IMG/VR virus record: IMGVR_UViG_3300010379_000036
Location: 1 to 29,311 of that record
Source of the DNA: a virus
Length of the DNA stretch: 29,311 nucleotides
Direction: 5' to 3' (one strand)
Shown here: positions 2,737 to 23,574 of the stretch, one piece after another
Layout: each line of letters begins with the position of its first letter
How positions within the stretch are numbered: position 1 is the stretch's first letter
The notes under the pieces: generated by a model
What the model was told of the DNA's origin: nothing
Databases searched by the model: none
What the model saw: only the letters and a program-made list of their open reading frames with translations
Position numbers and translations under genes: made by a program

Positions 2737-3105
2737 ATGCTCTACGCCATGAAACTCGAAGCCATCGCGGACCACATTCTCTACGAGCGGCGCATGTGCC
2801 GAAAATACGGCGTCGCTTGGCAGCCGAAGCGGATGATCGAATATCAGATTCGGCCGGCCTGGGTCGCCCGCATCATCGGCTTTCAGCCCGACGGCCGCGA
2901 GATCAGGCAGTTCCTGCGCGGCCGGCGGGATTATAGCCAGGCGACCAGCACCGGCTCGCGTGGCATCTGGATCCACTATCTGCTCGATGATGGGATTTAT
3001 GAAGTGAACGAGCCGGTGAAGTGGGGTCAGTGCCGGCGTTATTTCCTGCGTGTGCGCAACGGCGCGGCCACGGAAGTGGTCAGGAGGGGTTATGTCAGAC
3101 CTTAA
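2737..3105 (+). CDS. Hypothetical protein, 122 residues, upstream of the IbrA-like gene
   Basis: AGGAGG overlaps the previous stop (2726-2728) and sits five bases before ATG 2737. The product is basic and rich in Arg, Tyr and Trp, including RRMCRKYGVAWQPKRMIEYQ, then GFQPDGREIRQF and GIWIHYLLDDGIYEVNEP. Its 3' end overlaps the start of the PP-loop gene by 14 bases, so the two are probably translated as a coupled pair. I recognise no family. The strand-rich, aromatic C-terminal half looks like a small beta-domain (perhaps SH3- or OB-like), but this is only an impression from the residue pattern. Confidence 0.6.
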   Translation: MLYAMKLEAIADHILYERRMCRKYGVAWQPKRMIEYQIRPAWVARIIGFQPDGREIRQFLRGRRDYSQATSTGSRGIWIHYLLDDGIYEVNEPVKWGQCRRYFLRVRNGAATEVVRRGYVRP

Positions 3106-4324
3106 ACGTGGGCTCGGCGTTGACGTCTTGCAGGCCGCTCACCAGCGCCTGGCATTGGTGTTTGACCGTTTTCCGAAAATTTATGTGTCCTTCAGCGGCG
3201 GCAAGGACAGCTCGGTGCTGCTGCACCTGGCCATCGCCGAGGCAAGAGCGCGCAAGCGGCGCATCGGCGTGCTGTTTATCGATCTGGAAGCGCAATATCG
3301 GCTGACCATCGAGCACGTGCGCGAGAGTTTTGCGGCGGACGCCGACGTGATCGAGCCCTATTGGGTTGCCTTACCGATTCACCTGCGCAACGCGGTCAGC
3401 CAGTTCCAGCCGTTCTGGGTGTGCTGGGATCCGGAGCGGGAAGCGGACTGGGTGCGGAAGCCGGACAAGCTATCGATCACCGATCCGCGCCGCATTCCCT
3501 TTTTCCGGCATGCCATGGAGTTCGAGGAATTTGTTGCCGAGTTTGGCCACTGGTACGGGGATGGGAAGCCTACCTGTTGCCTGGTGGGCATTCGTTCCGA
3601 CGAGAGCTTGAACCGCTGGCGCGCCGTTGCTTCTGCGGGGACAACGCGCTTCGAGGGTTACAAGTGGACAACATGGAAACTCGGCGCTGTTTTCAACGCT
3701 TATCCCATTTACGACTGGCGGACGCGCGACATCTGGATCTATAACGCGCGGACCGATGCGCCCTACAATCGCCTCTATGACCGGTTTTATCAGGCTGGTC
3801 TGACCATCCACCAAATGCGCATTTGCCAGCCCTACGGCGACGATCAGCGTAAGGGTCTCTGGCTATTTCACATTGTCGAGCCGGACACCTGGGCCCGCGT
3901 GCTGGCGCGCGTCAACGGGGCCAATCAGGGCGCTCTCTATGCGCGCGAAAGCGGCAACATCCTCGGCGTGCTGAAGATCACCAAGCCGGAAGGTCATTCT
4001 TGGCAAAGCTTCGCAGAGTTGATCCTCGACAGTCTGCCGCCGCGGCTGCGCGAGCATTTCCACAACAAAATAGCAACATTCATTCACTGGTACGCCGCGC
4101 GTGGCTACGCGAACGGCATTCCAGACGAGGCCGACCCGAAAGAGGAGGCAAGCAAGCGCGCGCCGTCTTGGCGGCGCGTGTGCAAGGCGCTCCTGCGCAA
4201 CGACTACTGGTGCAAGGGCTTGTCCTTCACGCAGCAAACTAGCGGCAATACCAGCTACGACAAGTATCTGAAAATCATGCGCAAAAGGAGGGGGAAATGG
4301 CGGATCTACGAATCACGCGACTGA
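3092..4324 (+). CDS. DUF3440 / IbrA-like phosphoadenosine-phosphosulfate-reductase-family PP-loop ATPase
   Basis: The 410-residue protein starts at ATG 3092 behind AGGAGGGG. Residues 35-40 are SGGKDS, the PP-loop that binds ATP and adenylylates a substrate in the PAPS reductase/ATP sulfurylase superfamily. It is followed by IGVLFIDLEAQY (about 58-69) and LVGIRSDESLNRW (164-176), matching the DUF3440 pattern, and YPIYDWRTRDIW (204-215). The ECGxH redox motif of true PAPS reductases is not visible, so ordinary sulfate reduction is unlikely. In E. coli the homologue IbrA works with IbrB, and relatives travel with ParB-like proteins on mobile elements; DndC of DNA phosphorothioation is a more distant relative. 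Here a GNAT gene and an IbrB-like gene follow in overlapping order. Family assignment is firm; the substrate is unknown. Confidence 0.88.
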   Translation: MSDLKRGLGVDVLQAAHQRLALVFDRFPKIYVSFSGGKDSSVLLHLAIAEARARKRRIGVLFIDLEAQYRLTIEHVRESFAADADVIEPYWVALPIHLRNAVSQFQPFWVCWDPEREADWVRKPDKLSITDPRRIPFFRHAMEFEEFVAEFGHWYGDGKPTCCLVGIRSDESLNRWRAVASAGTTRFEGYKWTTWKLGAVFNAYPIYDWRTRDIWIYNARTDAPYNRLYDRFYQAGLTIHQMRICQPYGDDQRKGLWLFHIVEPDTWARVLARVNGANQGALYARESGNILGVLKITKPEGHSWQSFAELILDSLPPRLREHFHNKIATFIHWYAARGYANGIPDEADPKEEASKRAPSWRRVCKALLRNDYWCKGLSFTQQTSGNTSYDKYLKIMRKRRGKWRIYESRD

Positions 4325-6364: not shown

Positions 6365-6430
6365 TAGCTTGGCACGTCGAGCGCGCCGAAGGCCAAGAGC
6401 CGAGCGTGCGTGGCTAGAATTTCTTCGCTC

Positions 6431-6451
6431 TCGCCACTCGCCACTCGCCAC
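6431..6451. repeat. Three tandem TCGCCAC heptamers
   Basis: TCGCCAC occurs three times in perfect tandem in the 106-base gap between the accessory operon and the small terminase gene. The unit is 7 bp, the same period as the CAGGNNN elements further right, but of unrelated sequence. The rest of the gap (6365-6430 and 6452-6470) shows no gene; CTTGGC near 6367 and GCCAAG near 6390 could form a small stem. Confidence 0.8.
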
Positions 6452-6470
6452 TATCTGCTACTCTCGGGCC

Positions 6471-6971
6471 ATGCGTGGCCGCAAACCCATCCCGAACGCC
6501 CTGCACGATCTGCACGGCAACCCCGGCAAGCGCCGGCGCAACCTCGAGCCCAAGCTGCCGCCGGGGCTGCCCAGCTGCCCGGACCACCTCGACAAGCAAG
6601 CCAAAACCGAATGGCGCCGCCTGGTCAAGGACCTGCACGCCGCCGGCCTCCTCAAACGCATCGACCGCGCCATGCTCGCCGCCGCCTGCCAGTCCTATAG
6701 CCGCTGGGCCCGGCTGGAACGGATTGTCCAGAGCACAGGCGAGGTCATCCAAACCGGCAGCGTGTTGACCGACAGCGACGGCAACGTCCTGGAGGATACG
6801 CGCCAGTTCAAGCCCAATCCCTACCTCGGGGCCCTCAACCGCGCGCTCAAGCAAATGCACTGCTTCTACTCCGAGTTCGGCATGAGCGCCGCCAGCCGCG
6901 CCAGGTTGCACCTCGAGGGACAGGCCAGCAGCAGCGAACACGATGAGCTGAAGCTGTTCGTGGGCTCTTAA
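6471..6971 (+). CDS. Phage terminase small subunit, P27 family
   Basis: The 166-residue protein starts at ATG 6471 with MRGRKPIPNALHDLHGNPGK, the hallmark N-terminus of P27-family small terminases (R-K-P-x-P-x-x-x-x-x-x-x-G-N-P-G-K-R). CPDHLDKQAKTEWRRL, LLKRIDRAMLAAACQSYSRW and YLGALNRALKQMHCFYSEFGM follow in family order. Small terminases recognise the packaging site on phage DNA and deliver it to the large subunit. An in-frame ATG at 6369 was rejected because the added residues are encoded by the tandem-repeat spacer. No strong Shine-Dalgarno site precedes the ATG, a feature of many genes in this module. The length is typical. The large subunit follows after a palindromic heptad element. 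Confidence 0.92.
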   Translation: MRGRKPIPNALHDLHGNPGKRRRNLEPKLPPGLPSCPDHLDKQAKTEWRRLVKDLHAAGLLKRIDRAMLAAACQSYSRWARLERIVQSTGEVIQTGSVLTDSDGNVLEDTRQFKPNPYLGALNRALKQMHCFYSEFGMSAASRARLHLEGQASSSEHDELKLFVGS

Positions 6972-7041
6972 CCAGGAGGCAGGAACCAGGAGGCAGGAAC
7001 CAGGAATCATCCCTGACCCCTGTCTCCTGCCTCCTGTTCCC
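6972..7041. repeat. Palindromic CAGGNNN/CCTGNNN heptad element 1
   Basis: The left arm is five consecutive 7-mers starting CAGG (CAGGAGG CAGGAAC, twice, then CAGGAAT). The right arm is the complement class (CTGACCC CTGTCTC CTGCCTC CTGTTCC). It starts at the base after the small terminase stop and is followed by CCCTTTTTG, so it could act as a hairpin terminator or attenuator before the large terminase. Confidence 0.85.
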
Positions 7042-7050
7042 TTTTTGCAC

Positions 7051-8670
7051 ATGAGTATGGACAAGATCACCAAACAATGGATGCGCTCGGCCGCCGATGA
7101 GCGCGCCGTCGACGCCGGCTGCCGCTTCGATCTCCAGGCCGCCGATCGCGTCCGCCAGTTCGCCGCCAAGTTCTGCCGCCACGCCGAAGGCCAGTTCGCC
7201 GGCAAGCCCTTCGAGCTGTTCGATTGGGAATGGCTGGACGTGGTCGGCCCGCTCTACGGCTGGAAAGATGCGGCCGGCATCCGCCGTTACTCGAAGTTTG
7301 CCGGCTGGGTTCCCAAAAAACAGGGCAAGAGCAGCCTGGCCGCCGTGCTCATCGTCTACATGCTGCTGGCCGACGGCGAGGCAGCCGCGGAAATCTATGG
7401 GGCAGCGCGCGATCGTGGCCAGGCAGGCGTCGTGTTCAAAGTCGTCCAGAACATGGTCAACCAGTCTCCGGCCCTGCTCCAATACCTGAAGGTAATTCCC
7501 AGTGTCAAGCGCATCGTTTTCGAGCAACGGGCCAGCTTCTATACCGTGCTGTCGGCGGAGGCGCGCAAGACCGGCCACGGCGTCAACGGCCATTTCGCCG
7601 TCATCGACGAGCTGCACGTCGTTACGGCCGAACTCTACAACACGCTGCGTTACTGCGGCGCCTCGCGCCGCCAGCCGATCTTTTTCGAGATCTCGACCGC
7701 AGGCAACGACAAGACGTCCCTCGGCTACGAACGCTACCTCTACGCGAAGAGCGTGCGTGATGGCAGCAACACGGACGATACCCGCCTGCTCGTCTACATC
7801 ACCGAAGCGGATGGCAACGACGTATGGGAAGATGAAAAGCAGTGGCGCAAAGCCAACCCCTCCCTCGGCCACACGATTGCCCTGGACAAGTTCCGCGCGG
7901 ACTTCAGCGAAGCCAAGAACGGCACGCCCAGCGACCGCGCCGCCTTCCGCCAGCTCCGCCTCAACATCTGGCAGGATGCTACCAGCGGCTACTTCGACAT
8001 GCAGCAATGGGACGCCTGCGGCCGCTTCGCCGTCTCTCTGGAAGCCCTCCACGATCGCGATTGCTACGGCGGCCTCGATCTCGCCAACACGCTCGACATG
8101 ACTTGCTTCGCGCTCGCCTTCCCCGATGAAGACGGCGGCTATACCTTGCTGCTCTGGTGCTGGGTCCCCGAGGACATCAACCAGGAGCGCGAACGCACCA
8201 ACCGCCGCACCTATTACGACTGGATTCAACAGGGGCTGATCCGCAAGACCGAGGGCGACGAGCTCGACTATGCGCGCGTCCGCCGCGATGTCCGGGAGAT
8301 CGGCGAGCACCACAACATCAAGTCCATCGGCTACGACCCGTGGAACGCCGGCCAGATCGCCCAGGAGCTCCAGTCGGACGGCTTCGTGATGGAAAAAGTC
8401 CCACAATGCATCGCCAATTTCAACGAAGCGCTGGTGGCGATGTCCCGGCTGCTCAAAGCCGGCACGCTCCGCCACGGCGCCAACCCCGTGCTGCGCTGGA
8501 TGGCCGGCAACACCGTCGTCCGCGCCGATGGGCTAGGCTGCGTGATGCCCGCCCGCAAAAAGTCCACGGACAAAATCGATGGCATCGTTGCCGAGGCCAT
8601 GGCCATCGGCCAGGCCATCGGCAAGACCAAAGACGATGACTGGTACGAACCGGGCATGTTGAGAGATTAG
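7051..8670 (+). CDS. Phage terminase large subunit
   Basis: This is the DNA-packaging motor. Of 539 residues, the N-terminal ATPase carries the Walker A-like motif WVPKKQGKSSLAA near residue 90, Walker B HFAVIDELH near 190 and a coupling segment FFEISTAGND near 215. The C-terminal RNase H-like nuclease shows YGGLDLANTLDMTCFAL near 345, with the first metal-binding Asp, IGYDPWNAGQIAQEL near 425 and the final acidic STDKIDGIVAEAMA near 510. The order and length fit HK97/lambdoid-type large terminases of the Terminase_1 family. The start is uncertain: TTG 7045, ATG 7051 and ATG 7057 are in frame and none has a clear ribosome site; ATG 7051 was chosen. The frame is intact. Confidence 0.94.
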   Translation: MSMDKITKQWMRSAADERAVDAGCRFDLQAADRVRQFAAKFCRHAEGQFAGKPFELFDWEWLDVVGPLYGWKDAAGIRRYSKFAGWVPKKQGKSSLAAVLIVYMLLADGEAAAEIYGAARDRGQAGVVFKVVQNMVNQSPALLQYLKVIPSVKRIVFEQRASFYTVLSAEARKTGHGVNGHFAVIDELHVVTAELYNTLRYCGASRRQPIFFEISTAGNDKTSLGYERYLYAKSVRDGSNTDDTRLLVYITEADGNDVWEDEKQWRKANPSLGHTIALDKFRADFSEAKNGTPSDRAAFRQLRLNIWQDATSGYFDMQQWDACGRFAVSLEALHDRDCYGGLDLANTLDMTCFALAFPDEDGGYTLLLWCWVPEDINQERERTNRRTYYDWIQQGLIRKTEGDELDYARVRRDVREIGEHHNIKSIGYDPWNAGQIAQELQSDGFVMEKVPQCIANFNEALVAMSRLLKAGTLRHGANPVLRWMAGNTVVRADGLGCVMPARKKSTDKIDGIVAEAMAIGQAIGKTKDDDWYEPGMLRD

Positions 8671-9435: not shown

Positions 9436-9696
9436 ATGAGAGCCCTTGCCGCCAAGCTGCTTGCGCGCGCCCGCGACATCGTTCGCCGGCGTTGGCCTCC
9501 GCTACGGCGCCTGCTCCTGCTCGCTTCCCAACTCCTCACACTCCGCGACTACCTGGGCCTGGCCGCCCTGGCCGGCATGATCGCCGGCTGGTGGATGATC
9601 TGGCCCGCTCTCGGTCTCATTATCCCCTGCACGATCCTGTTCGCACTGGTGACCCACAGCCGCCTCCGGGAGGAGGGGCGCGGCGAGAGGGACTAG
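9436..9696 (+). CDS. Small membrane protein, 86 residues
   Basis: ATG 9436 is preceded by GGGAAGGGAACGAGG, a plausible though imperfect ribosome site. The N-terminal 30 residues are strongly basic (KLLARARDIVRRRWPPLRRL). Then come two hydrophobic segments, YLGLAALAGMIAGWWMIW and ALGLIIPCTILFALV, and an Arg/Glu-rich tail. The pattern fits a two-pass inner-membrane protein with a positive cytoplasmic N-terminus. Placed just before the portal it could be a holin-like or assembly factor, but no lysin is nearby and holins normally lie elsewhere, so this is only a possibility. The stop codon is immediately followed by a heptad element. Confidence 0.55.
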   Translation: MRALAAKLLARARDIVRRRWPPLRRLLLLASQLLTLRDYLGLAALAGMIAGWWMIWPALGLIIPCTILFALVTHSRLREEGRGERD

Positions 9697-9822
9697 GAGT
9701 CAGGAGCCAGGAATCAGGACTCAGGAGACAGGAGTCAGGGGTCAGGAATCACTGCTGCCTCCTGCCTCCTGATTCCTGCCTCCTAATTCCTGCCTCCTGA
9801 TTCCTGACGCCTGCCTCCTGCC
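9697..9822. repeat. Palindromic heptad element 2
   Basis: Left arm heptads (AGGAGTC AGGAGCC AGGAATC AGGACTC AGGAGAC AGGAGTC...) run to about 9750. The hinge is AATCACTGCTG, and the right arm (CCTGCCT CCTGATT CCTGCCT CCTAATT CCTGCCT CCTGATT CCTGACG) runs to 9821. It is among the longest copies and fills nearly the whole gap before the portal gene. Confidence 0.88.
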
Positions 9823-9837
9823 GTTCGCCCCTAAACC

Positions 9838-12246
9838 ATGCTCGATCTGATCTACGGCCGGCCCAAACCGAAAGCCTTCTACGCCGACTGGCAGCCGATG
9901 GGCAGCGGCTTCTCGCGCTACTGGTGGGGCGGCCAGATGCGCACCCAGGCCGGCGTCGTCGTCGACCACGGCCTGGCCCTCACCCTGGCCGCCGTCTGGT
10001 GCGCCACGCGCATCCTCTCCGAAATCCCGTCGATGCTGCCGTTCAACCTCTACGAACGGCTGCCCGATGGCGGCAAGCGCATCGCCCTCGATCACGAAAT
10101 CCACCACATCGTGAGCTGCCAGCCCAACCAATCGATGACAGCCATGCCGTTCTGGGAATCGCGGGCCGCCCACACCGTCAACTGGGGCAACGGCTTCGCC
10201 GAGATCGTCCGCGATCGCCGCGGCAACCTGGCCGAGCTGCACCCGATCCACCCCAGCCGCGTCAAGCCGCGCAAGAAGGCCGATACGGAAGTCTCGGCCG
10301 AATTCCCCTACCTGGTGCGCAACAACGATGGCTCGGAAACGCCGATGCGCGCCGACGAGATCCTGCACATCCCCGGCTGCATCAGCGAGGAGGGCATGTG
10401 GGGCAAGGGCTGCATCCCCTATGCCCGCGAGGATACGGGCACGGGGCTCGCCATGGGCCGCCATTCGGCCACCTACTTCAGTTCCGGCGCCACAGCCCGC
10501 GGCGTGCTCAAGGTCCCCGGCATGAAGGACCGCGATGCGCGCGCCAGTTTCCGCGCCGAATGGAAGGATGTGCACGGCTCCCCGGATTCCGGCGAAGTGA
10601 TCCTCCTGCCTCCGGAAGCGGATTTCACGCAGATCTCGATCTCCAACGAAGCCAGCCAGTTCCTCGAGAGTCGCAAGTTCAACGTCGAAGAGATCTTCTG
10701 CCGCTGGTACCGGCTGCCCGCCCACTTCGCCGGCCTGCTCGATAAAGCCTCGTATGCCTCGATCGAGATGCAGTCCCTCGAGTTCGTCGTCTACGGCCTC
10801 ATGCCCTGGCTGATCCGCAAGGAGCAGCATTGCAACTGGAAGCTGCTCACGCCCGAGGAGCGCAAGACCTACTTCTTCGAGCACGAGCTCACCGGCCTGC
10901 TGCGCGGCGATTTCGAAACCAGGATGAGGGGCTACCAGATCGCCCTGGGCATTGGCATCCTGTCGATCAACGAGGTCCGCCGCCTGGAAAACCGCGAAGT
11001 CCTGCCCGCCGAGCTCGGCGACGTGCACTTCGTGCCAGGCAACTGGACCACCGTCGAAAGGATGGTCTCCGGCCAGCTCGGCGCTGGCGACGACGCCGCC
11101 GGCCTACTACCGGCGCCCGCCGGCTCATCGGTCCCATCGGTCCCATCCGTCTCATCGCTCGCCTGGGGCGATCTCAAAGACAACGATCAAGCCCTCCCCT
11201 ACCCCGACGTCCCCCAAAAGGACAATTACAGTTGCGGCGCCGCCATCTCCATGTCCGTCGGTGGTCTCTTCAAGGTCGGTCCGAAAACCCTCGAGGAATG
11301 GAAAACCGCCCTGGGCACCACGGTGGAGCACAGCACCGAGCCGATGCGCATCGTGGAGTACTTCACCGAGCTGGGCCTGGCCGTCACGGCTTGCCACGAC
11401 CTCACCATCGACGATCTGCGCGCAGCCTGGCGGCAGGGCAAGGCCTCGATCTGTCCCATCCAGGAGTACGGCGTCCCCAGCAAACAGGCCAGCTTCAATT
11501 ACGGCCATTACGTCGGGGTCGCCGCGGTCTGGCCCGGTTTCGTGCAGGTGCAGGATCCGTCGATCGACAATGTGCTCAAAGGCCAGGACGCCGACCAGGC
11601 CCCCGGCCAGATGGTGATCGATTACCAGAGGTGGAACGCCGGCTGGCACGATGAGGACTGGCGGAAGAAGCAGTTCGTGCATTTCGCGATCATGATCGGC
11701 CGCCGCGCCGTGGATGCCGAAGACGACGACGATGAGGATGATGGAACAGGAGGCAACAAAGGAAACGGAGAGAAGGAGAAAGGGGATTCCAATGGGAACG
11801 GAACAAAAAATACCAGCGGAGGTAACAACGACGGCAAATCCGCTCCTAATAGCAACACTGCCGCCACCGCCGCCGCTGCTCAACGTCAAGGCGTACAGGC
11901 GGTCCTTGCAGATGTCCTGGGCCGCATGTTTGGGAAAGAGTCAAAGCAGGCAGCGCGGGCGGCGGCAGCTAAGGGGCAGGGCCTCGAAGCGTGGCTAGCC
12001 GGCTTCTATCCAGCTCATCGCGCCAATTTGCTCACTGCCCTGGAAGCCCCCGCCCTCCTCATGCGCAGCCAGGGCCAGCCGATCAACACCCAGGCGATCG
12101 CCGACGCCATCACGACCGAATCGATGGGCCTCTTGCGGGACATGTACAATCGAGACACCCGCGCCCAGTTCGCCGCCAAGCTGGAAACCTGGCCCACGGA
12201 ACGCGCCCAGGCCTGGGCCGAGAAAATCCTGAAAGGGGAGCTATAA
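9838..12246 (+). CDS. HK97-type portal protein with embedded C39-like cysteine peptidase domain
   Basis: At 802 residues this is about twice the usual 400-450 of HK97 portals. Residues 1 to about 415 are the portal core (LAAVWCATRILSEIPSMLPF, NWGNGFAEIVRDRRGNLAEL, KFNVEEIFCRWYRLPAHFAG, YASIEMQSLEFVVYGL). Residues about 450-620 read as a C39-type papain-like peptidase: NYSCGAAISM with Cys466 and an N/Q-x-x-C-G-A context, NYGHYVGVAAVW with His557, and VQVQDPS with Asp573, in the correct order and spacing. An acidic-then-Gly/Asn linker (about 625-682, lower GC) leads to a helical C-terminal region ending WAEKILKGEL. Portals form the dodecameric DNA gate. The peptidase could process head proteins or cell-wall peptides. 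An S49 protease gene follows, so the element has two proteases. One continuous frame, no intein motifs. Confidence 0.9.
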   Translation: MLDLIYGRPKPKAFYADWQPMGSGFSRYWWGGQMRTQAGVVVDHGLALTLAAVWCATRILSEIPSMLPFNLYERLPDGGKRIALDHEIHHIVSCQPNQSMTAMPFWESRAAHTVNWGNGFAEIVRDRRGNLAELHPIHPSRVKPRKKADTEVSAEFPYLVRNNDGSETPMRADEILHIPGCISEEGMWGKGCIPYAREDTGTGLAMGRHSATYFSSGATARGVLKVPGMKDRDARASFRAEWKDVHGSPDSGEVILLPPEADFTQISISNEASQFLESRKFNVEEIFCRWYRLPAHFAGLLDKASYASIEMQSLEFVVYGLMPWLIRKEQHCNWKLLTPEERKTYFFEHELTGLLRGDFETRMRGYQIALGIGILSINEVRRLENREVLPAELGDVHFVPGNWTTVERMVSGQLGAGDDAAGLLPAPAGSSVPSVPSVSSLAWGDLKDNDQALPYPDVPQKDNYSCGAAISMSVGGLFKVGPKTLEEWKTALGTTVEHSTEPMRIVEYFTELGLAVTACHDLTIDDLRAAWRQGKASICPIQEYGVPSKQASFNYGHYVGVAAVWPGFVQVQDPSIDNVLKGQDADQAPGQMVIDYQRWNAGWHDEDWRKKQFVHFAIMIGRRAVDAEDDDDEDDGTGGNKGNGEKEKGDSNGNGTKNTSGGNNDGKSAPNSNTAATAAAAQRQGVQAVLADVLGRMFGKESKQAARAAAAKGQGLEAWLAGFYPAHRANLLTALEAPALLMRSQGQPINTQAIADAITTESMGLLRDMYNRDTRAQFAAKLETWPTERAQAWAEKILKGEL

Positions 12247-12261: not shown

Positions 12262-12468
12262 GACAGGCGGCAGGATACAGGAATCAGGAGACAAGCATCA
12301 GGCATCAGGAGCCAGGCATCACTGACTCCTGCCCCCTGCCTCCTGACTCCTGGACTGCCCCCTGATCCCTGCCCCCTGACCGCTGTTCCTCCATTCCCTC
12401 CTGTCCACGAATGCAGGAGGCAGGGGGCAGGAGTCACTGATACCTGACTCCCGATCCCTGACTCCTAT
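12262..12468. repeat. Two adjacent palindromic heptad elements (3a, 3b)
   Basis: Element 3a has left heptads from 12262 to about 12319 (CAGGCGG CAGGATA CAGGAAT CAGGAGA...), hinge GCATCACTGAC, and right heptads to about 12387. Element 3b has left heptads at 12413-12436 (CAGGAGG CAGGGGG CAGGAGT), hinge CACTGA and right heptads to 12468. Together they fill the portal to protease gap. Confidence 0.87.
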
Positions 12469-12483: not shown

Positions 12484-13398
12484 ATGCCCCCGGCAACATC
12501 CACCAAGCTCTGGCTCGCCGATCACCAGTTCCTCGCCGGCGCCTCGCTGCGGCTGCGCAACCTGCACGCTCTGCCCTGCCAGGCCGAAATCGACGAGGCC
12601 CGCGTCAAGGCCGCCGCCAAGCAGCTCCGCCTCGCCGCCGGCAAGGTCGCCGTCATTCCCATCCAGGGCGTGATCGAACAGAAGATGTCGCTGTGGGGCT
12701 GGCTGTTCGGCGGCTGCTCGACCGAGGATACCGCCGCCGCCCTGCACATGGCCCTGGCCAGCAAGGACTGCGGCGCCATCGTTCTCGACGTCGATTCCCC
12801 CGGCGGCGAAGTCTACGGGGTCCAGGAGCTGGCCGATCAGATTTTCGCTGCCCGCAGCGTCAAGCCGGTGCATGCCATCGCCAACAGTTGCATGGCCTCG
12901 GCCGCCTACTGGCTCGGCTCCTGCGCCGCGCAGGTCTGCGCCAGCCCCGGGGCCGACGTTGGTTCTGTCGGCGTCTACACCGTGCACGAGGATTGGTCGG
13001 GCGCCTACGGCGAAGCCGGCGTCAAGTGCACGATCGCCAAGACCCCGAAAAATAAGGCCGAATTCAACGACCTGGAACCGCTCTCCGACGACGATGAGGA
13101 GCGCCTGCAGGAAATCGTCAAAGGCGTCTACGAGAAATTCGTGAAGGCCGTCGCCCGCAACCGCGGCGTCCCCCCCTCCGACGTGCGCAGCAAATACGGC
13201 AACGGCCGCCTCCTCAAAGCCGACGAAGCGCTCTCCGCCGGCATGATCGACAAGATCATGACCATGAGCGATCTGCTGGACCGCCTCACGGGAGGGGCGA
13301 GAGGCGAGGGATCAGGGCTCAAGGGTCAGGGGACCAGCATGGAGGTCCTCCGCTTGCGGCATCAGGTCGCAAAAGATAGAAAGTGCCGTAGTATGTAG
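12484..13398 (+). CDS. S49-family (SppA-like) phage head maturation protease
   Basis: ATG 12484 lies eight bases after AAAGGAG. The 304-residue protein has KVAVIPIQGVIEQK (54-67), VLDVDSPGGEVYG (100-112, oxyanion-loop region) and NSCMASAAYWLGS, with the predicted nucleophile Ser139 in M-A-S-A-A-Y. Lys191 (TPKNKAEF) is 52 residues downstream, the spacing of the Ser/Lys dyad in SppA. VGSVGVYTVHEDWSGAYGEAGV and ERLQEIVKGVYEKFVKAVAR follow as in the family. In phages this enzyme, placed between portal and capsid, cleaves the scaffold or capsid N-terminal domain during head maturation. The last 35 residues (after DLLDRLTGG) are encoded by a heptad-repeat fragment and end in a TAG contributed by another repeat, so the natural C-terminus was probably replaced. 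Confidence 0.92.
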   Translation: MPPATSTKLWLADHQFLAGASLRLRNLHALPCQAEIDEARVKAAAKQLRLAAGKVAVIPIQGVIEQKMSLWGWLFGGCSTEDTAAALHMALASKDCGAIVLDVDSPGGEVYGVQELADQIFAARSVKPVHAIANSCMASAAYWLGSCAAQVCASPGADVGSVGVYTVHEDWSGAYGEAGVKCTIAKTPKNKAEFNDLEPLSDDDEERLQEIVKGVYEKFVKAVARNRGVPPSDVRSKYGNGRLLKADEALSAGMIDKIMTMSDLLDRLTGGARGEGSGLKGQGTSMEVLRLRHQVAKDRKCRSM

Positions 13399-13558: not shown

Positions 13559-13952
13559 GGACCCTCCTACCCTCTTCGGCAAGCCGATCGTGTTCACCGG
13601 TTCCCTCGAATCGAGCAGGCACCGCTTCGAGAAAATCGACCTCGACCCGGTCACGATGATCGCCAAGCTCAACGCCTGGGACGCCGATGGCTGGGAGTAC
13701 GTGCAGGGCTTCCCCGCTCTGCAGATGAGTCGAGTCGCCGGCGTGCCCATGAAGCCAAACGTGCTCTGCCTCCTGCGCCGCCGTAGTGAACTGCCCACGG
13801 CTGTGCAACAGGAGCGCATGGCCTGCGCCGCCGCCATGTGTGCAGGCTGCAAGCAGAATCTGCCCTACGATGAAGAGCACGGCGTGCACATCGAACCTGA
13901 AGGCACCGCCTTCTGCCGCGCCATCAGGATCCGCGAGCGCATGGACCAGTAG
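13551..13952 (+). CDS. Hypothetical protein with DUF4177-like core and C-terminal Cys cluster
   Basis: ATG 13551 overlaps the stop of the micropeptide. In this 133-residue protein, residues 28-65 read KIDLDPVTMIAKLNAWDADG then WEYVQGFPALQMSRVAGVPM and NVLCLLRRRS. The LN-x-W/L-x-x-x-G-W-E-x-V pattern with a closing hydrophobic strand is that of DUF4177-like small beta-alpha domains. The C-terminal 45 residues contain AMCAGCKQNLPYDEEHGVH and GTAFCRAIR, with three Cys and two His that could bind zinc. It sits between head protease and capsid, where accessory head genes are usual, but no virion role is shown. Its stop is followed directly by two heptad elements. Confidence 0.65.
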   Translation: MREDPPTLFGKPIVFTGSLESSRHRFEKIDLDPVTMIAKLNAWDADGWEYVQGFPALQMSRVAGVPMKPNVLCLLRRRSELPTAVQQERMACAAAMCAGCKQNLPYDEEHGVHIEPEGTAFCRAIRIRERMDQ

Positions 13953-14098
13953 TCAGGGATCAGGAGTCAGGGATCAGGAGTCAGGGATCAGTGATTCCTG
14001 CCTCCTCACCGGACGCAGGCTAAAAAGGGGTTCGCCAGGAGTGAAGGATCAGGAGACAGGGATCAGTGATTCCTGCCTCCTCACTCCTGGCTCCTGCT
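13951..14098. repeat. Two palindromic heptad elements (4a, 4b)
   Basis: Element 4a (13951-14008) has CAGGGAT CAGGAGT repeated, hinge GATCAGTGATTCC, and a short right arm. Element 4b (14036-14098) has CAGGAGA CAGGGAT, the same hinge ATCAGTGATTCCTGCCTCCT, and a longer right arm. The identical hinge and first right heptads suggest duplication of one copy. Confidence 0.86.
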
Positions 14099-14114
14099 AA
14101 CCGAGGCATTCACC

Positions 14115-14624: not shown

Positions 14625-15027
14625 TCTCCTGGTCGAGCATCTCGAAGCCCTGCCCCAAGTCCACGCCGCCATCTTGGAGCCCTTCGACTGGCCCGCCGTG
14701 CAGCAGCGCCTCGACCAGGCGGGCATCGACTACATCGCCAACCCCGTCCGCCTGCCGCGGCACATCGTTGTTGAAGACGATCTCACCCTGCAGGCCTGGG
14801 TGGTGCTCGCCAGCGCGGACGTCGGCGCCGGCCGCGACCGCAGTCTCTGCGGCCAAGGAGAAACGCCCAGCCCCCGAACCATCCTCGCCAAACGCTTCCA
14901 CGCCCGCGAAAGCGTCGCCAGCCCCGGTTGGCGCAAGATCATGGAAGCCAACCGCGTGCAGGTATCAGGGGTCAGGAATCAGGGATCAGGAATCAGGGCT
15001 CAGGCATCAGCAGTCACTGACTCCTGA
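14599..15027 (+). CDS. Hypothetical protein, 142 residues, C-terminus encoded by a repeat
   Basis: ATG 14599 lies behind CCGGAGGGCC and overlaps the previous gene. Residues 1-120 (MPKTKSAFDLLVEHLEALPQ, DWPAVQQRLDQAGIDYIANP, LPRHIVVEDDLTLQAWVVLA, RTILAKRFHARESVASPGWR) look like a compact helical then strand domain with good codon bias. From about residue 121 the frame runs straight through a CAGGNNN element, giving VSGVRNQGSGIRAQ and a terminal AVTDS. That tail is clearly repeat-derived; the ancestral stop was probably lost when the repeat inserted. No family is recognised. Position between head protease and capsid suggests a head-associated role. Confidence 0.55.
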   Translation: MPKTKSAFDLLVEHLEALPQVHAAILEPFDWPAVQQRLDQAGIDYIANPVRLPRHIVVEDDLTLQAWVVLASADVGAGRDRSLCGQGETPSPRTILAKRFHARESVASPGWRKIMEANRVQVSGVRNQGSGIRAQASAVTDS

Positions 15028-15049
15028 CCCCTGCCTCCTGGCTGCTGGA
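14959..15049. repeat. Palindromic heptad element 5 (overlaps a coding 3' end)
   Basis: Left heptads (ATCAGGG GTCAGGA ATCAGGG ATCAGGA ATCAGGG CTCAGGC) are translated as part of the gene starting at 14599. The hinge is CAGTCACTGAC, and the right arm CTCCTGA CCCCTGC CTCCTGG ends at about 15049. From 15050 to 15112 a G-rich tract with GGGGATAGGGGCG and T6 follows; no gene is seen. Confidence 0.85.
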
Positions 15050-15112
15050 TTGCCGACAGCGCCGACGGCGAGGCAGTAGGGGCGAGGGAAGAGGGGATAG
15101 GGGCGTTTTTTA

Positions 15113-15325: not shown

Positions 15326-15545
15326 CGCGCTTCCTGCGCCGGCGCTTTTGACTCGCCGCTCCCGGCTACACTCAAACCGACGTTCGAGCCTTCAGCTCGC
15401 GCGACACAGTAGACCTCCCCGACGTGCCTTTAGCTGCCGGCGTGGCTACTCGGTCCAGTTTTGCAACTGGCCGATGGCAAGCCCAGCGCTCGGCGCGGGT
15501 CTCCCGACCCCGTCACTCCTGTCCATCGGCCGCGGAGACGAGCCG
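15326..15545. other. Non-coding leader before the capsid gene
   Basis: No gene is supported, although one frame stays open upstream of the capsid start. The stretch includes TTCGAGCCTTCAGCTCGCGC and CCAGTTTTGCAACTGG (a CCAGTT/AACTGG stem near 15451-15466), which could form small hairpins. A GGAG at 15533-15536 precedes ATG 15546. Confidence 0.4.
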
Positions 15546-16919
15546 ATGGAAGTCCTCGACAAACTCTATACCCGCCTCGAAGAGACCGACGCCACGATCG
15601 ACAAGCTCCTGGCCAACGAGAACCTGTCGGCCGACCAGCTCGCCGAGCACGACAAGCTGCAAACCAGCCGCAAGGCGATCCTGGCGGCCATCGACCGCGA
15701 AAACGACAAGATCAGCCGCCAGGAGGAGCGCCAGCGCCTCAAGGCCTCGCTGGATACCAACCGCCGCCGCATCGCCGAGGCCGACCGCACCCCCAATCCT
15801 CGTCGGATCGATCCGGACACTCCCGCCGGCACGCAGCTCAGTGTCCCCGCCACGCCCATCGATCACGAAGCCGAGCGACGCCGCGGCTTCACAACGCCGC
15901 GCGAATTCCTCAATTGCGTCATGCAAGCCGGTCTCCGGCCCGACCGTGCCGATCCGCGCCTGAGGCCCTTGCTAACGGTCGGCAGCGATGAAGCTTCTGG
16001 CACGAGCGATGCTTACGGCTCGTTCCTGATCCCGATGGGATTTAGCCCGGATTTTCTGGCCTTGACGCCGGAAGACGATCCCATGGCGTCGATGATCACG
16101 CGCGTGCCCATGACCACGCCTTCCGTGACCATCCCCGCACGTACCGACAAGAACCACACGACCAGCGTCGCCGGCGGTCTGACTGTCACGCGTCGCCCGG
16201 AAACCGTCGTCGGCACGGCCAGCCGCGGCCAACTCGAGCAGCTCGTACTCGCAGCGCACACTCTGTTCGGCCTCGCTTATGCGACGGAGGAGCTGCTCGT
16301 CGACAGCCCGTTGACTTTCATCGCCATTCTGGAGCGTGGCTTCAAGGAGCAGTTCCAATACGCGCTCATCAAGGAACGGTTGACCGGCAGCGGTGCCGGC
16401 GAGTTCGAGGGGGTGCTCAACGCCGGCAATCCCTACCTGGTTTCCGTGCCGGTCGAGAACGGCCAGGCCACGAAAACGATCACGCTCGCGAACATCTTGT
16501 TGATGATGTCGCGTTGCTGGGGCTACGGCCGTGCCCTCTGGATCGCCAACCACGACACCATTCCGCAGCTCGGCATTCTCAATCAAGCGGTAGGCGTGGC
16601 CGGCACCGGCATGATCTGGGAAACCAACGTCGAAGGGCCGATTCCCAACCGCCTTCTGGGCCGGCCGCTCATGTTCTCCGAATATGCCAGCACCCTCGGC
16701 ACCGCCGGCGATCTGCTCCTGGGCACATGGTCGGAATACTTGGAGGGCACCTATGCTCCTCTGGAAAGCGCGGAAAGCGTTCACGTTCGCTTTGTGAACC
16801 ATGAGAGAGCTTTTAAGTTCTGGATTCGCAATTGTGCGAGATGTTGGTGGCGCAGCCCGTTGACACCTGTCAACAGCACAGCCACGCTATCGCCCTTCGT
16901 GGTGTTGACGGGCCGTTAA
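15546..16919 (+). CDS. HK97-fold major capsid protein
   Basis: The 457-residue protein has an N-terminal coiled-coil delta (scaffolding) domain at about 1-80 (MEVLDKLYTRLEETDATIDK, DKLQTSRKAILAAIDRENDK), then a Pro-rich linker (80-110). This is where the preceding S49 protease would be expected to cut. The HK97 fold follows: RGFTTPREFLNCVMQAGL, YGSFLIPMGFSPDFLALTPE, MTTPSVTIPARTDKNHTT, LFGLAYATEELLVDSPLTFI (E-loop/spine region), GEFEGVLNAGNPYL, LGRPLMFSEYASTLGTAGDL, and a C-terminal strand TPVNSTATLSPFVVL. The order matches Phage_capsid family proteins. ATG 15546 follows GGAG and begins the coiled coil; the upstream extension is non-coding. The gene is intact, so coat function is likely conserved. 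Confidence 0.94.
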   Translation: MEVLDKLYTRLEETDATIDKLLANENLSADQLAEHDKLQTSRKAILAAIDRENDKISRQEERQRLKASLDTNRRRIAEADRTPNPRRIDPDTPAGTQLSVPATPIDHEAERRRGFTTPREFLNCVMQAGLRPDRADPRLRPLLTVGSDEASGTSDAYGSFLIPMGFSPDFLALTPEDDPMASMITRVPMTTPSVTIPARTDKNHTTSVAGGLTVTRRPETVVGTASRGQLEQLVLAAHTLFGLAYATEELLVDSPLTFIAILERGFKEQFQYALIKERLTGSGAGEFEGVLNAGNPYLVSVPVENGQATKTITLANILLMMSRCWGYGRALWIANHDTIPQLGILNQAVGVAGTGMIWETNVEGPIPNRLLGRPLMFSEYASTLGTAGDLLLGTWSEYLEGTYAPLESAESVHVRFVNHERAFKFWIRNCARCWWRSPLTPVNSTATLSPFVVLTGR

Positions 16920-16925
16920 GCGAAT

Positions 16926-17013
16926 TAGGAATCAGGAGTCAGGAATCAGGAGTCAGGAATCAATGCTGCCTGCTGACCCCTAGCCCCTGACGCCTGACCC
17001 CTGACACCTGACT
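16926..17013. repeat. Palindromic heptad element 6
   Basis: Left arm AGGAATC AGGAGTC repeated five times, hinge GAATCAATGCTGCC, right arm with CCCCTGA CGCCTGA CCCCTGA CACCTGA. The element occupies the gap between capsid stop and the next gene. Confidence 0.87.
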
Positions 17014-17029: not shown

Positions 17030-17503
17030 ATGGCCAGCCAATTCCTCGCCCAGCATGTCGGCTCGCGGAACTTCATCGAGAGCATCGTGCACAGTCCGGG
17101 CGCCGCGACGGCCACGGTGCTCACGCCCAACAGCACGCCCACGCCCCAGTGGCGGAGCATGGAAAACTATGAGTATTTCCTGGTCTGCGTGGCCAACGCC
17201 GTGCTCACCGGCACCGGCCTCACGCTCCTGGAAATCGTCGCCGCCACCGACAGCCTCGGCACCAATATTCAACAAATCGTGACCACGGGTGCCCTGACGG
17301 GCTCCCTGGTCGACAACGGCGCCTCGATCGAAATCGAAGCCGGCCAGCTCGAAGAGGTCCGCGCCGCCGCCGGGCTGACGCTGCCTCTCCTGTGGGTCGC
17401 CGCGCGCATCACGATGAACAACAGCGCCGATATCATGGCCGCGACCTACGTGCGCAGCGGCGCCAAGCGGCCGTTCCTGAACCTGACGCCCTTGACCTTC
17501 TAG
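17030..17503 (+). CDS. Probable virion protein downstream of capsid, 157 residues
   Basis: ATG 17030 follows TTGGAG by about eight bases. The protein starts MASQFLAQHVGSRNFIESIV and is rich in small and Thr residues (AATATVLTPNSTPTP, TGTGLTLLEIVAATDS), with a final ARITMNNSADIMAATYVRSG. The low-charge, strand-prone composition resembles head decoration or stabilisation proteins, which usually follow the capsid gene. I cannot assign a named family. The frame is intact and bounded on both sides by heptad elements. Alternative reading: a small structural adaptor. No membrane segment or signal peptide is visible. Confidence 0.6.
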   Translation: MASQFLAQHVGSRNFIESIVHSPGAATATVLTPNSTPTPQWRSMENYEYFLVCVANAVLTGTGLTLLEIVAATDSLGTNIQQIVTTGALTGSLVDNGASIEIEAGQLEEVRAAAGLTLPLLWVAARITMNNSADIMAATYVRSGAKRPFLNLTPLTF

Positions 17504-17553
17504 GAGTCAGGAATCAGGAGCCAGGAATCAATGTGCCTGACCCCTGCCTCCTG
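17504..17553. repeat. Palindromic heptad element 7 (short)
   Basis: Three left heptads (AGGAGTC AGGAATC AGGAGCC AGGAATC), hinge AATGTGC and right CTGACCC CTGCCTC CTGAGG. The right end merges with GAGGAG, the ribosome site of the next gene. Confidence 0.83.
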
Positions 17554-17563
17554 AGGAGTAGTG

Positions 17564-17740
17564 ATGGCCGAACCCAAGAAACCCGAAGCCACGGCCGAGC
17601 GCATCGAAAGCCTGGCCAGGGAGATCTACTGCGCCCTGGTCGTGTCTTCGCACACCGCCCACAAGACGTTGGAGAGCCTGGCGGAGGATGCCTGGATCAA
17701 GGCCCGCGCCTTCTACAGCGGCAAGCGGGCTGAAAGTTAA
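17564..17740 (+). CDS. Small helical protein, 58 residues
   Basis: ATG 17564 follows TGAGGAGTAGTG; a GTG at 17561 is an alternative. The product MAEPKKPEATAERIESLARE then IYCALVVSSHTAHKTLESLA and EDAWIKARAFYSGKRAES is almost wholly helical and charged at both ends, 58 residues long, ending at TAA 17738-17740. It lies between a probable head protein and a beta-helix protein, and both flanks are heptad elements, so it is an isolated cistron. Similar short helical proteins occur in phage head modules, but no family is recognised. Confidence 0.6.
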   Translation: MAEPKKPEATAERIESLAREIYCALVVSSHTAHKTLESLAEDAWIKARAFYSGKRAES

Positions 17741-17843
17741 AGGAGTCAGGAATCAGGAGTCAAGAATCAATGCTGGCTGCTGACCCCTGAATCCTGACCC
17801 CTGACTCCTGCTTCCTGACCCCTGCCTCCTGACTCCTGTTCCT
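17741..17843. repeat. Palindromic heptad element 8
   Basis: The left arm AGGAGTC AGGAATC AGGAGTC AAGAATC ends at the hinge AATGCTGGCTG. The right arm is longer (about nine heptads: CCCCTGA ATCCTGA CCCCTGA CTCCTGC TTCCTGA CCCCTGC CTCCTGA CTCCTGT), so the arms are unequal. Confidence 0.87.
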
Positions 17844-17857: not shown

Positions 17858-18760
17858 ATGCCAAAAACCCATTTTTCTCCCGTCGGCGGCAACAAATGGA
17901 ACGCCCTCGCCTCCTTCTACGACGAGCTGCGCGCCCACGGCAATGTCTACTGGGTCAACAGCGTCACCGGCAACAACACCACCGCCACGGGCCTCTCGCC
18001 CGAAGATCCGTTCGCCTCGATCGCCTACGCCATCGGCAAGTGCGTGGCCAACAACAACGACCTCATCCTGGTGATGGCCGGCCACGTCGAAACCGTCATC
18101 GCCGCCGGCACGGTCAACGTCAACGTCGCCGGCGTCACGATTCGCGGCATCGGCACGGGCCGCCAGCGCGGCACGGTCAATTACACCACCGCCGCCGCCG
18201 CCTCGTTCAACATCACCGCCGCCGGCGTCACGGTGCAAAATCTGACCTTCACGGGCATGGGCGTGGCCGCGGTCACCTCGATGGTCAACGTCAGTGCCGC
18301 GGACTGCTCGATTTTGGGCTGCGAGTTCGAGCATGCCAACGCCACGAACCAGGCGGGCATCGTCATCAGCAGCACAGCCGCAGCCAATCGCCTGATCATC
18401 GATTCCTGCTCGTTCCACGGCTCCAACAACGCCGGCACGACCAGTGCGCTCAGCATCGTCGGCGGCGACGCAGCGCGCGTGAGCAACTGCCGTTTCTCGG
18501 GGGCTTATCACGTCTCGGCCGGCGTGATCCTCAACCAGACCACGGCGTGCACGAATATCGCGATCGTCAACAATTACATCCAGAACCTGACCGCCTCGAA
18601 CACGAAGTCGGTGGTGCTGGTGGCCGCGAGCACGGGCCAGATCAGCGACAACAACTGCCAGATCCTTTCCGGCACGGCGCCCTTCACGGCTGCCGCGGGT
18701 AGCTGGGTGGGATGTAACTATTACGCCGCGACAATCGCAACGGCCGGAACGCTGATTTAG
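17858..18760 (+). CDS. Parallel beta-helix (pectate-lyase-like) virion-associated protein
   Basis: The 300-residue protein starts at ATG 17858 after AAGGA. Residues 25-60 contain GNVYWVNSVTGNNTTATGLS then PEDPFASIAYAIGKC, the usual entry to right-handed beta-helix proteins. From 70 onward short strands repeat every 20-25 residues with turns: VNVNVAGVTIRGIGTG, FNITAAGVTVQNLTFTGMG, CSILGCEFEHANATN, RLIIDSCSFHGSNNAG, ARVSNCRFSGAY, IAIVNNYIQNLTASN, GQISDNNCQIL. Beta-helices are common in tailspikes, but this gene lies in the head block between capsid and connector. A capsid-surface fibre or decoration is therefore as likely as a receptor-binding spike. No catalytic residues can be assigned. Confidence 0.75.
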   Translation: MPKTHFSPVGGNKWNALASFYDELRAHGNVYWVNSVTGNNTTATGLSPEDPFASIAYAIGKCVANNNDLILVMAGHVETVIAAGTVNVNVAGVTIRGIGTGRQRGTVNYTTAAAASFNITAAGVTVQNLTFTGMGVAAVTSMVNVSAADCSILGCEFEHANATNQAGIVISSTAAANRLIIDSCSFHGSNNAGTTSALSIVGGDAARVSNCRFSGAYHVSAGVILNQTTACTNIAIVNNYIQNLTASNTKSVVLVAASTGQISDNNCQILSGTAPFTAAAGSWVGCNYYAATIATAGTLI

Positions 18761-18843
18761 TCAGGGAACAGGAGTCAGGAGACAGGAATCAGGAGGCACT
18801 GATCCCTGACCCCTGACTCCTGACTCCTGATCCCTGTCCCCTG
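18761..18843. repeat. Palindromic heptad element 9
   Basis: Left arm CAGGGAA CAGGAGT CAGGAGA CAGGAAT CAGGAGG, hinge CACTGAT, right arm CCCTGAC CCCTGAC TCCTGAC TCCTGAT CCCTGTC CC. It starts one base after the TAG stop, and its right end touches the GGAGAA ribosome site of the next gene. Confidence 0.88.
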
Positions 18844-18850
18844 GAGAATT

Positions 18851-19279: not shown

Positions 19280-19346
19280 GCGCAGCCCGAGACTCCGAAA
19301 TCGGCCTGGATTCGCAGGGGGGATCCGGGCTGAAATCGGAGCCTCG
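19271..19346. other. Hairpins around and after a stop codon
   Basis: CTGCGC-TGA-GCGCAG (19271-19285) is a six-pair stem with the stop codon as loop. Just beyond, CGAGACTCCGA (19288-19298) pairs with TCGGAGCCTCG (19336-19346) with one mismatch. There is no T-run, so these are more likely RNA 3'-end stabilisers or repeat remnants than intrinsic terminators. Confidence 0.5.
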
Positions 19347-19359
19347 AGTTGGGCTCGGC

Positions 19360-19443
19360 AGCAGGAATCAGGAGGCAGGAGACAGGAGACAGGAGTCAGG
19401 AGGCAGCAATCACTGTCTCCTGATCCCTGCCCCCTGATTCCTG
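19360..19443. repeat. Palindromic heptad element 10
   Basis: Left arm CAGGAAT CAGGAGG CAGGAGA CAGGAGA CAGGAGT CAGGAGG, hinge CAGCAATCACTG, right arm TCTCCTG ATCCCTG CCCCCTG ATTCCTG. It ends seven bases before the next start codon, leaving no room for a separate ribosome site. Confidence 0.88.
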
Positions 19444-19449
19444 AATGCA

Positions 19450-20109
19450 ATGTGGGGCAACGGCTTAACGCCATACATGGAGCCCAAGCAGCCGCGGTTT
19501 CGGCCGACGATGCTCGGTCCGCTGTCCATCATCACGCCGCCAGCGGACGGGCCCTACCTTGATATCGAGCTCACCAAGAAACATTGCCGCATCGAGGATG
19601 ACTACGACAACGACCTGGTCGAAGAATATATTCGCGTGGCCGCCAAGTGGTGCGAGCAGCAGATCCCCGGCCACCGCCAGCTCCTGCAAGCGACTTACCA
19701 GGTGCCCGTCGAAGCCTGGATCGATAGCCGCCGCCTGATGCTGCCCCGGCCGCCCCTGCAGCAGGTCAATCAAATCCAGTATTACGATTACAACGGCACG
19801 CTACAGGTCCTGGCCACGAGCTATTACCTGGTCGGCACGCCCTGGCGCGGAGCGGGCTTTATCCAGCGCGCCCCATTCCAGATCTGGCCGCCCTTCGAGC
19901 CCGATCGTCAGTACCCGATCCTCGTGACGTTCACCTGCGGCTACGTAACCGGCGTCGGCTGCGAGCCTTACCAAATCCCGGAAACGATCCGCCAGGCCAT
20001 GCGCCTGCACGTGCGCTGGCAGCACGCCAACCGCGGCGAAATCGAGACCCCCATGCCCAAAGCCATCCAGGACCACCTCGACCTCGAGGATTGGGGATCG
20101 TATGCCTAG
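19450..20109 (+). CDS. Head-tail connector protein (HK97 gp6-like)
   Basis: The frame spans 219 residues from ATG 19450 (ATG 19486 and 19510 are alternatives; none has a clear ribosome site). The core reads LTKKHCRIEDDYDNDLVEEY then IRVAAKWCEQQIPGHRQLLQ, the helical signature of gp6-like connectors (L-x-x-H-x-R-x-x-x-x-x-D-x-x-x-x-x-x-x-I-x-A-A). Strand-rich VEAWIDSRRLMLPRPPLQQV and QIQYYDYNGTLQVL follow, then VTFTCGYVTGVGCEPYQIPE and ETIRQAMRLHVRWQHANRGE, as in the family. Such proteins form the dodecameric or tridecameric ring under the portal. The order (connector, closure, gp10-like, DUF3168, tube) that follows is canonical. Confidence 0.85.
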   Translation: MWGNGLTPYMEPKQPRFRPTMLGPLSIITPPADGPYLDIELTKKHCRIEDDYDNDLVEEYIRVAAKWCEQQIPGHRQLLQATYQVPVEAWIDSRRLMLPRPPLQQVNQIQYYDYNGTLQVLATSYYLVGTPWRGAGFIQRAPFQIWPPFEPDRQYPILVTFTCGYVTGVGCEPYQIPETIRQAMRLHVRWQHANRGEIETPMPKAIQDHLDLEDWGSYA

Positions 20110-21234: not shown

Positions 21235-21651
21235 ATGGAAAAGATCCTCATCCAATTCCTGCTGGCCAACGCCCAAATCACGGGCCTGGCCAGCGGTCAG
21301 AACCTCCAGCCTCTCGCCGAGGATCAGGACTTGCCTCCCCCCTACATCGTCGTGCAAATGGTCAAGGGCCGGCGCACCACGACGCAAAAGGGCGCCGAAG
21401 GCACGCGCTTCCTGCACTTCTTTTTGATCTGTCACGGCACGACGCCCAAACAGGCCTCCGACATCCTCGAGGCGCTCGCTGCGATCGTCGATTGCGAAAG
21501 CGGCACGGTGACCGTCGATGCCGTCACCTACACGATCCGCGGCATCTTCGTGGAAGACGAAGAAACCGATTTCGACCCCCCGGTGCACGGCGACCAGGTC
21601 GGGGATCCTTCGGCGCACAAGCTCCTGTTGATGGTCAGCGAACCCCAGTAG
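21235..21651 (+). CDS. Tail completion protein, DUF3168-like
   Basis: The 138-residue product starts at ATG 21235 (MEKILIQFLLANAQITGLAS). Two upstream ATGs in frame (21217 and 21229) fall in or beside the repeat. DQDLPPPYIVVQMVKGRRTT corresponds to the conserved P-x-x-x-Y-I-V-x-x-x-V of DUF3168 proteins, and FLHFFLICHGTTPKQASDIL then EALAAIVDC to the strand plus helix of the fold; the C-terminus ends with a strand KLLLMVSEP. This family caps or terminates the siphovirus tail tube at the head end. Placement just after the gp10-like gene and before the tail tube is the standard order. Confidence 0.8.
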   Translation: MEKILIQFLLANAQITGLASGQNLQPLAEDQDLPPPYIVVQMVKGRRTTTQKGAEGTRFLHFFLICHGTTPKQASDILEALAAIVDCESGTVTVDAVTYTIRGIFVEDEETDFDPPVHGDQVGDPSAHKLLLMVSEPQ

Positions 21652-21779
21652 GCAGGAGTCGGGAGTCAGGCATCAGGAGTCAGGCATCAGGAATCAGGAG
21701 TCAGGAATCAGGAGTTAGGAGGCAGGGGTCAGTGATTCCTGTCCCCTGCCTCCTGTCCCCTGACTCCTGTCCCCTGCCG
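21652..21779. repeat. Palindromic heptad element 11
   Basis: The left arm runs for about ten heptads (CAGGAGT CGGGAGT CAGGCAT CAGGAGT CAGGCAT CAGGAAT CAGGAGT CAGGAAT CAGGAGT TAGGAGG CAGGGGT). The hinge is CAGTGATTCC, and the right arm runs six or more heptads. CCCCTTTTTGCTCTG follows at 21787, as after element 1. The remainder to 21894 has an AGACGCGAGAGC repeat fragment and no gene. Confidence 0.88.
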
Positions 21780-21894
21780 CATCCTCCCCTTTTTGCTCTG
21801 CTGATTCCTAGACGCGAGAGCCAGCGGTGTAGACGTCTGCACTCCCCCATTCCCTCGCCCCGCGCCCCTGTTCCCTCAGCCCTACACCACTGCC

Positions 21895-23495: not shown

Positions 23496-23496
23496 G

Positions 23497-23574
23497 AGAC
23501 ACGAGTCAGGAAACAGGGATCAGGAGACAGGGATCAGGAAAAAGTGATTCCTGACTCCTGACTCCTGTCTCCTC
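23497..23574. repeat. Palindromic heptad element 12
   Basis: Left arm AGGAGAC ACGAGTC AGGAAAC AGGGATC AGGAGAC AGGGATC AGGAAAA, hinge AGTGATTCC, right arm CCTGACT CCTGACT CCTGTCT CCTCTGA. The tape measure start codon follows at 23582 with no separate ribosome site. Confidence 0.88.

Follow-up and report, generated by a model that had tools for sequence, protein, structure and literature searches.

The portal protein encoded in a 29,311-base virus record of IMG/VR, called the window here, looks to carry a catalytically competent C39-like cysteine peptidase on flexible linkers at the end of the portal core, as judged from its sequence and a structure model. The likeliest role of this domain, to which we assign a probability of roughly 0.4, would be that of a virion-cargo peptidase that is tethered in the head, freed by proteolysis and ejected together with the DNA.

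The portal gene and its surroundings

The fusion gene lies in its expected place in a head module with the order small terminase subunit (TerS), large terminase subunit (TerL), portal, protease and capsid protein. The same TerL-portal-protease-capsid order is found in Javan3, and a similar one in the NatCom phages. The features of the module and of the portal gene are as follows.

6369..6971, + strand: terminase small subunit (PF05119, E 4.9e-24)
7045..8670, + strand: terminase large subunit, TerL (PF20441, E 6.5e-41; PF03354, E 1.9e-25)
9838-12246, + strand: portal-C39 fusion gene, a single uninterrupted ORF of 802 aa
9838..11082, + strand: HK97-type portal core, residues 1-415 (PF04860; TIGR01537, E 2.4e-60; phrog_12)
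11083..11187, + strand: variable linker 1, residues 416-450, with a 9-bp tandem repeat at 11126-11157 (77% identity to the sister phage, indels)
11188..11709, + strand: predicted C39-like papain-fold peptidase domain, residues 451-624 (homology, profile and model matches)
11215..11217, + strand: Gln460, predicted oxyanion-hole residue (invariant with stand-alone phage C39 proteins; in register with PeiR Gln84)
11233..11235, + strand: Cys466, predicted nucleophile (invariant with stand-alone phage C39 proteins; aligned to PeiR Cys90)
11506..11508, + strand: His557, predicted catalytic His in a GHY motif (invariant; aligned with the PeiR GHY motif)
11554..11556, + strand: Asp573, predicted third catalytic residue in a DPS motif (invariant; aligned with the PeiR DP motif)
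11710..11922, + strand: acidic, then Gly/Asn-rich low-complexity linker, residues 625-695 (65% identity to the sister phage, dN/dS 0.27)
11923..12246, + strand: orphan C-terminal domain, residues 696-802, predicted helical, with the stop codon (76% identity to the sister phage, dN/dS 0.25)
12484..13398, + strand: S49-family head maturation protease, next gene after the portal (PF01343, E 1.5e-27; phrog_53, E 2.7e-74)
15348..16919, + strand: HK97-fold major capsid protein (PF05065, E 1.3e-23; phrog_10, E 1.1e-18); the listed start may lie upstream of the true one

By every test made on its sequence, the 802-aa protein is an HK97-type phage portal. Residues 52-385 match Phage_portal (PF04860, E 4.9e-85) and residues 13-418 match the portal family phrog_12 (E 8.8e-93), and the curated portal cut-offs are exceeded with 286 bits versus 39.1 for PF04860 and 204.5 versus 112 for TIGR01537. 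These matches agree with the original prediction that portal sequence runs to about residue 415, and the S49 protease that it placed directly afterwards is encoded there as well. The full-length AlphaFold2 model (mean pLDDT 45.7) was too poor for domain placement. The portal crown points into the capsid interior (PMC10359639), and by analogy with portal biology the protein would form a dodecameric ring with its crown in the capsid lumen.

Among the other genes of the window, a PAPS reductase-like protein with DUF3440 is encoded at 3050-4324 (+; E 5e-16 and 5e-32), with unassigned small proteins downstream. A minus-strand prepilin-like gene (28178-29170; N_methyl motif, E 2.6e-5) closes the record; it was not found in the sister phage and may be either an accessory gene of the phage or host sequence from the border of a prophage. 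No endolysin was found with Pfam and PHROGs among the late or unknown proteins of both phages, a search that was not exhaustive, and PADLOC gave no match that would support an anti-defence reading of the portal.

Nearly every gap between the structural genes holds palindromic arrays of 7/14-bp units, in which (CAGGAGT/CAGGAAT)n faces (ACTCCTG)n:

Palindromic arrays, first half of the series: 6970-7037, 9690-9822, 12263-12436, 13941-14103, 14958-15054, 16920-17012, 17502-17554
Palindromic arrays, second half of the series: 17727-17843, 18749-18844, 19338-19457, 21645-21783, 23476-23588, 25322-25464, 26884-26978

Long hairpins are formed by the three arrays that were folded, with a large margin over shuffled sequences (z -5.1, -5.1 and -7.2). 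Similar short repeats are common in some Planctomycetes. Two more families of intergenic hairpin repeats, GTTTAACCGCAGGCCCTCAGGGCCGCGCG and GTAGCACAAGCCGATGGCTTGTG, were found at 20113, 20608, 22330 and 22713 and at 13391, 21193, 26511 and 26539, respectively.

The C39-like domain

Cys466, His557 and Asp573 had been proposed as a catalytic triad and lie exactly at the claimed positions and in the right order; Gln460 is present as well. In C39 enzymes an oxyanion-hole Gln is conserved six residues before the Cys, and Gln460 precedes Cys466 by this distance.

Searches with the bare domain against Pfam, PHROGs, NCBIfam and PDB sequences gave weak or empty results. PF11814 (DUF3335, 'Peptidase_C39 like') reached 22.3 bits, below the cut-off of 25, NCBIfam returned no match, and PF03412 and PF13529 were not among the Pfam matches listed for the portal protein itself. 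Matches to IpaD (E 0.04-0.1) were taken as chance. A tblastn search matched the domain over 94% of its length to a stand-alone protein of the 595-kb huge phage LR756511 (429897-430484; E 2e-9), which passes the Pfam cut-offs (Peptidase_C39_2, 5e-14; Peptidase_C39, 2.5e-13). Because this protein bridges the domain to the Pfam C39 families, we consider the domain C39-like; unlike the portal protein, its stand-alone homologues reach the gathering scores of PF03412 and PF13529. With hhalign, the domain was aligned to the stand-alone phage protein L006:5983-6492 at a probability of 99.3% over its full length. In addition, a profile of three sequences (window, sister phage and LR756511 protein) matched PeiR (7e-9) and ComA (1.9e-6) among the PDB sequences; in this profile the Cys column corresponds to PeiR Cys90, the residue mutated in structure 8z4n, and the motifs GHY and DP are aligned too.

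L006:5983-6492 belongs with L010-L017 to a family of stand-alone phage C39 proteins. Its gene lies within 3 kb of a gene for a CHAP-domain protein (3329-3838) and is possibly part of a lysis module.

The AlphaFold2 model of the domain, built from six sequences, has a pTM of 0.70 and a mean pLDDT of 67, with low confidence in the loops near 104-115 and 139-147. Foldseek returned ComA (E 6e-6) and, more weakly, the PCAT1 peptidase domain and PeiR as its other best matches. When structures were compared, PeiR, ComA and PCAT1 matched the model at Z 15-16 over 134-147 residues, PeiR being the best match (Z 15.8); 3zua, a C39-like domain of the HlyB type, was also among the structural matches. The original prediction had named structure prediction as its check, and the model has a papain-like fold that resembles C39 peptidases, with Cys, His and Asp in register with PeiR. 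The claim of an embedded C39-type domain is thus borne out by the bridging homologue, hhalign, the PDB profile and the model, all of which agree. Its predicted fold and catalytic residues place the domain among the C39-like papain-fold peptidases. The C39 bacteriocin-processing peptidases proper do not include it, since it comes without an ABC transporter and is fused to a portal instead.

A sister phage and the distribution of the fusion

A second contig, IMGVR_UViG_3300010379_000008 (51,232 bases), encodes a portal of 814 aa with the same architecture. The two portals are 85% identical overall and 93% identical in the C39 domain, and all indels between them fall in the linkers and keep the frame. 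dN/dS (NG86) was 0.11 for the portal core and 0.12 for the C39 domain (95% 0.05-0.21), a simple estimate from one pair of phages, because only two phages carry the fusion. In the same comparison the acidic linker (0.27) and the C-terminus (0.25) were looser than core and C39 domain. The C39 domain is, by this estimate, under purifying selection as tight as that on the portal core, and the equal values indicate that it did not arise by faulty assembly and is not a functionless passenger.

Absence of the insertion from all related portals would, in the original prediction, have pointed to a cloning or assembly error; the sister contig, assembled independently, carries the same fusion. A false join between a portal gene and a C39 gene, by chimeric assembly or a mis-called frame, would suit a metagenomic contig and a bare domain below the Pfam cut-offs, but it is ruled out by this separate 51-kb contig, which has the same architecture at 85% identity and in-frame linker indels, and by purifying selection to either side of each junction, so that we give it next to no weight.

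The 5-kb contig L008 (IMGVR_UViG_3300030659_000090) has a TerL identical to that of the window, and its portal reads to residue 318 and ends before the C39 domain. This other record represents the same phage or one that is almost identical.

An alignment of portals found 600 virus-contig candidates, of which the best 80 were compared. None of these 80 has a C39 domain in its portal, and beyond the core their portals extend by no more than 57 residues (median 38). Among 50,697 phage records searched with the domain by tblastn, LR756511 alone gave a match, and there the match is a separate gene; both searches are biased towards close portals and do not amount to a full survey. The search for the same insertion therefore turned out as expected for the sister phage and for none of the other retrieved portals. 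Virus relatives identified by TerL, capsid, portal and C-terminal domain were the sister contig and the 5-kb contig only. A pattern search of a genome collection, which reaches sequences sharing short conserved peptides, gave no relative and hence no cellular homologue or host, and a plasmid collection held no match for the domain. Stand-alone C39 proteins were excluded from the full-length alignment, as MAFFT spread them over the portal.

An acidic, Gly/Asn-rich linker had been noted after the C39 domain and is present at residues 625-695. The GC3 of this linker is 0.52 versus 0.86-0.89 in the core and the C39 domain. The two phages share the stretch SGG-x-NDGK-x-APN (window SGG-N-NDGK-S-APN, sister SGG-D-NDGK-P-APN), which holds, at 661-662 of the window, the only Gly-Gly common to both downstream of the C39 domain. 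In the sister portal (L002:4660-7104) the linker after the C39 domain reads NAALATRHSPLTTTDAQR, and the window is shorter there. Similar peptides of the ATRHSPL type recur in translations of the gaps of the sister contig, so that the coding linker of its portal may have acquired an intergenic repeat.

The segment after this linker had been described as the normal helical C-terminus of portals, a description that did not hold: other retrieved portals end within 57 residues after the core and the tail matches the sister phage only. Residues 675-802 gave no meaningful E-value against Pfam, PHROGs, phages and plasmids. Helices are drawn in this region in the full-length model, at low confidence. 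On this evidence, the segment 696-802 is not the usual portal tail but an orphan domain peculiar to the two phages.

Possible roles and known systems

We infer a position inside the head, release, ejection, activity and a substrate along the following lines. The C39 domain would be virion cargo on the portal, held inside the head. While the head matures, either the S49 protease or the C39 domain itself could cleave the low-complexity linkers on both sides, and the freed enzyme of about 20 kDa would leave with the DNA. The peptide barrier that it might cut in the next host could be a host protein or, in line with its endolysin relatives, the cross-links of peptidoglycan. Where phage relatives of the bridging proteins carry an annotation, they are endolysins (Gordonia phage Lilbeanie lysin A, PeiR, Synechococcus S-CBP2 and S-CBS1). 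As candidate substrates, the original prediction had listed a head protein, a host precursor or toxin leader and a cell-envelope peptide. We favour a cargo role because published portal-enzyme fusions are interpreted as injected or wall-breaching (PMC5512222), because the full Q/C/H/D set is common to stand-alone phage C39 proteins and PeiR, because the crown faces the capsid interior (PMC10359639) and because variable flanking linkers fit a released module. Against it, the domain is internal and followed by an orphan helical domain, whereas a simple cargo would more likely be expected at an end of the protein.

The main rival is that the domain acts as an assembly enzyme, processing the portal or another head protein during maturation, which we consider possible but doubtful. 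For example, it could cut its own linker at the Gly-Gly of residues 661-662 (SGG-NNDGK) and free the helical C-terminal domain after this has played its part in assembly. C39 enzymes of ABC transporters cleave after Gly-Gly, and here a conserved Gly-Gly sits in an otherwise fast-changing linker, which is suggestive only. The placement between the portal and the orphan domain suits cleavage in cis, and substrates would be at hand, as the portal of HK97-type phages is ringed by scaffold towers within the prohead (PMC10275583). On the other hand, a Gly-Gly comes cheaply by chance in a Gly/Asn-rich linker. In classical C39 substrates a helical leader precedes the Gly-Gly, and none is found here. 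Moreover, an S49 head protease is already encoded next door, and close portal relatives do without the C39 domain. A portal that processes itself, its C39 domain cutting the linker at Gly-Gly independently of S49 and timed by assembly or DNA packaging, so that the ring would serve as its own protease for maturation or release, we regard as unlikely.

We think it still less probable that a non-cutting peptidase fold serves the portal crown as a structural element or binds DNA or scaffold there. In C39-like domains of the HlyB type the Cys is missing and the substrate is bound without being cut; 3zua, a domain of this type, was among the structural matches. A binding-only domain would be free to lose its catalytic residues, whereas both phages retain all four, in register with PeiR. 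The remaining probability goes to mixtures or to roles outside those considered. A free C39 protein made from an internal start at Met409 is not favoured, AAAGG directly abutting the ATG.

If active, the domain would place a protease right at the opening through which DNA passes into and out of the virus head, beside but separate from the head maturation protease, and papain-like peptidases would join the enzymes known to be borne by portals. The fusion would then offer a compact test case for portals that deliver enzymes into hosts versus portals that process themselves.

Among known systems, PeiR, the pseudomurein endoisopeptidase of a Methanobrevibacter virus (8z4h, 8z4n), has the same C39 fold, Q/C/H/D order and spacing around the Cys. 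It differs in being a stand-alone lysin that is not joined to a virion structural protein, and is 17% identical to the portal domain. The C39 domains of ABC transporters (ComA, 3k8u/5xe8; PCAT1, 4ry2) also share the fold and catalytic layout; unlike these, the portal domain has no ABC transporter, and cleavage of Gly-Gly leaders is a trait of the transporter enzymes. The stand-alone phage C39 proteins (LR756511 429897-430484; L006:5983-6492) are homologous over the whole domain but are separate genes, and in the portal domain more residues follow the DPS motif. In mycobacteriophages, the endolysin domain N5 has been matched to a C39-like peptidase (PMC3314691).

The original prediction knew of no described portal-C39 fusion, and none, whether with a C39 or another papain-like domain, came up in the open-access literature or, apart from the sister phage, in the sequence searches made. 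Fusions of portals to other enzymes (PBECR, 2H, InPase and lysozyme) have been published and were interpreted as effectors that are injected or as enzymes that breach the wall, and the four peptidase superfamilies listed for polyvalent proteins (zincin, assemblin-like, DD and LonC) include none that is papain-like (PMC5512222). Prophage MuF-Tox-PL1 proteins also carry a papain-like toxin domain on a head or packaging protein (PMC3482391), but on MuF rather than on the portal, and Tox-PL1 is a different papain-like family. The polyvalent portal fusions likewise place an enzyme on the portal, though different enzymes, and the present protein has an enzyme domain and a portal domain in one polypeptide, as in the definition of portal-effector fusions (PMC5512222). 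It fits these fusions in architecture and, by likeness, may share their function; the portal-C39 fusion is a known architectural theme with a new module, and in this form seems undescribed.
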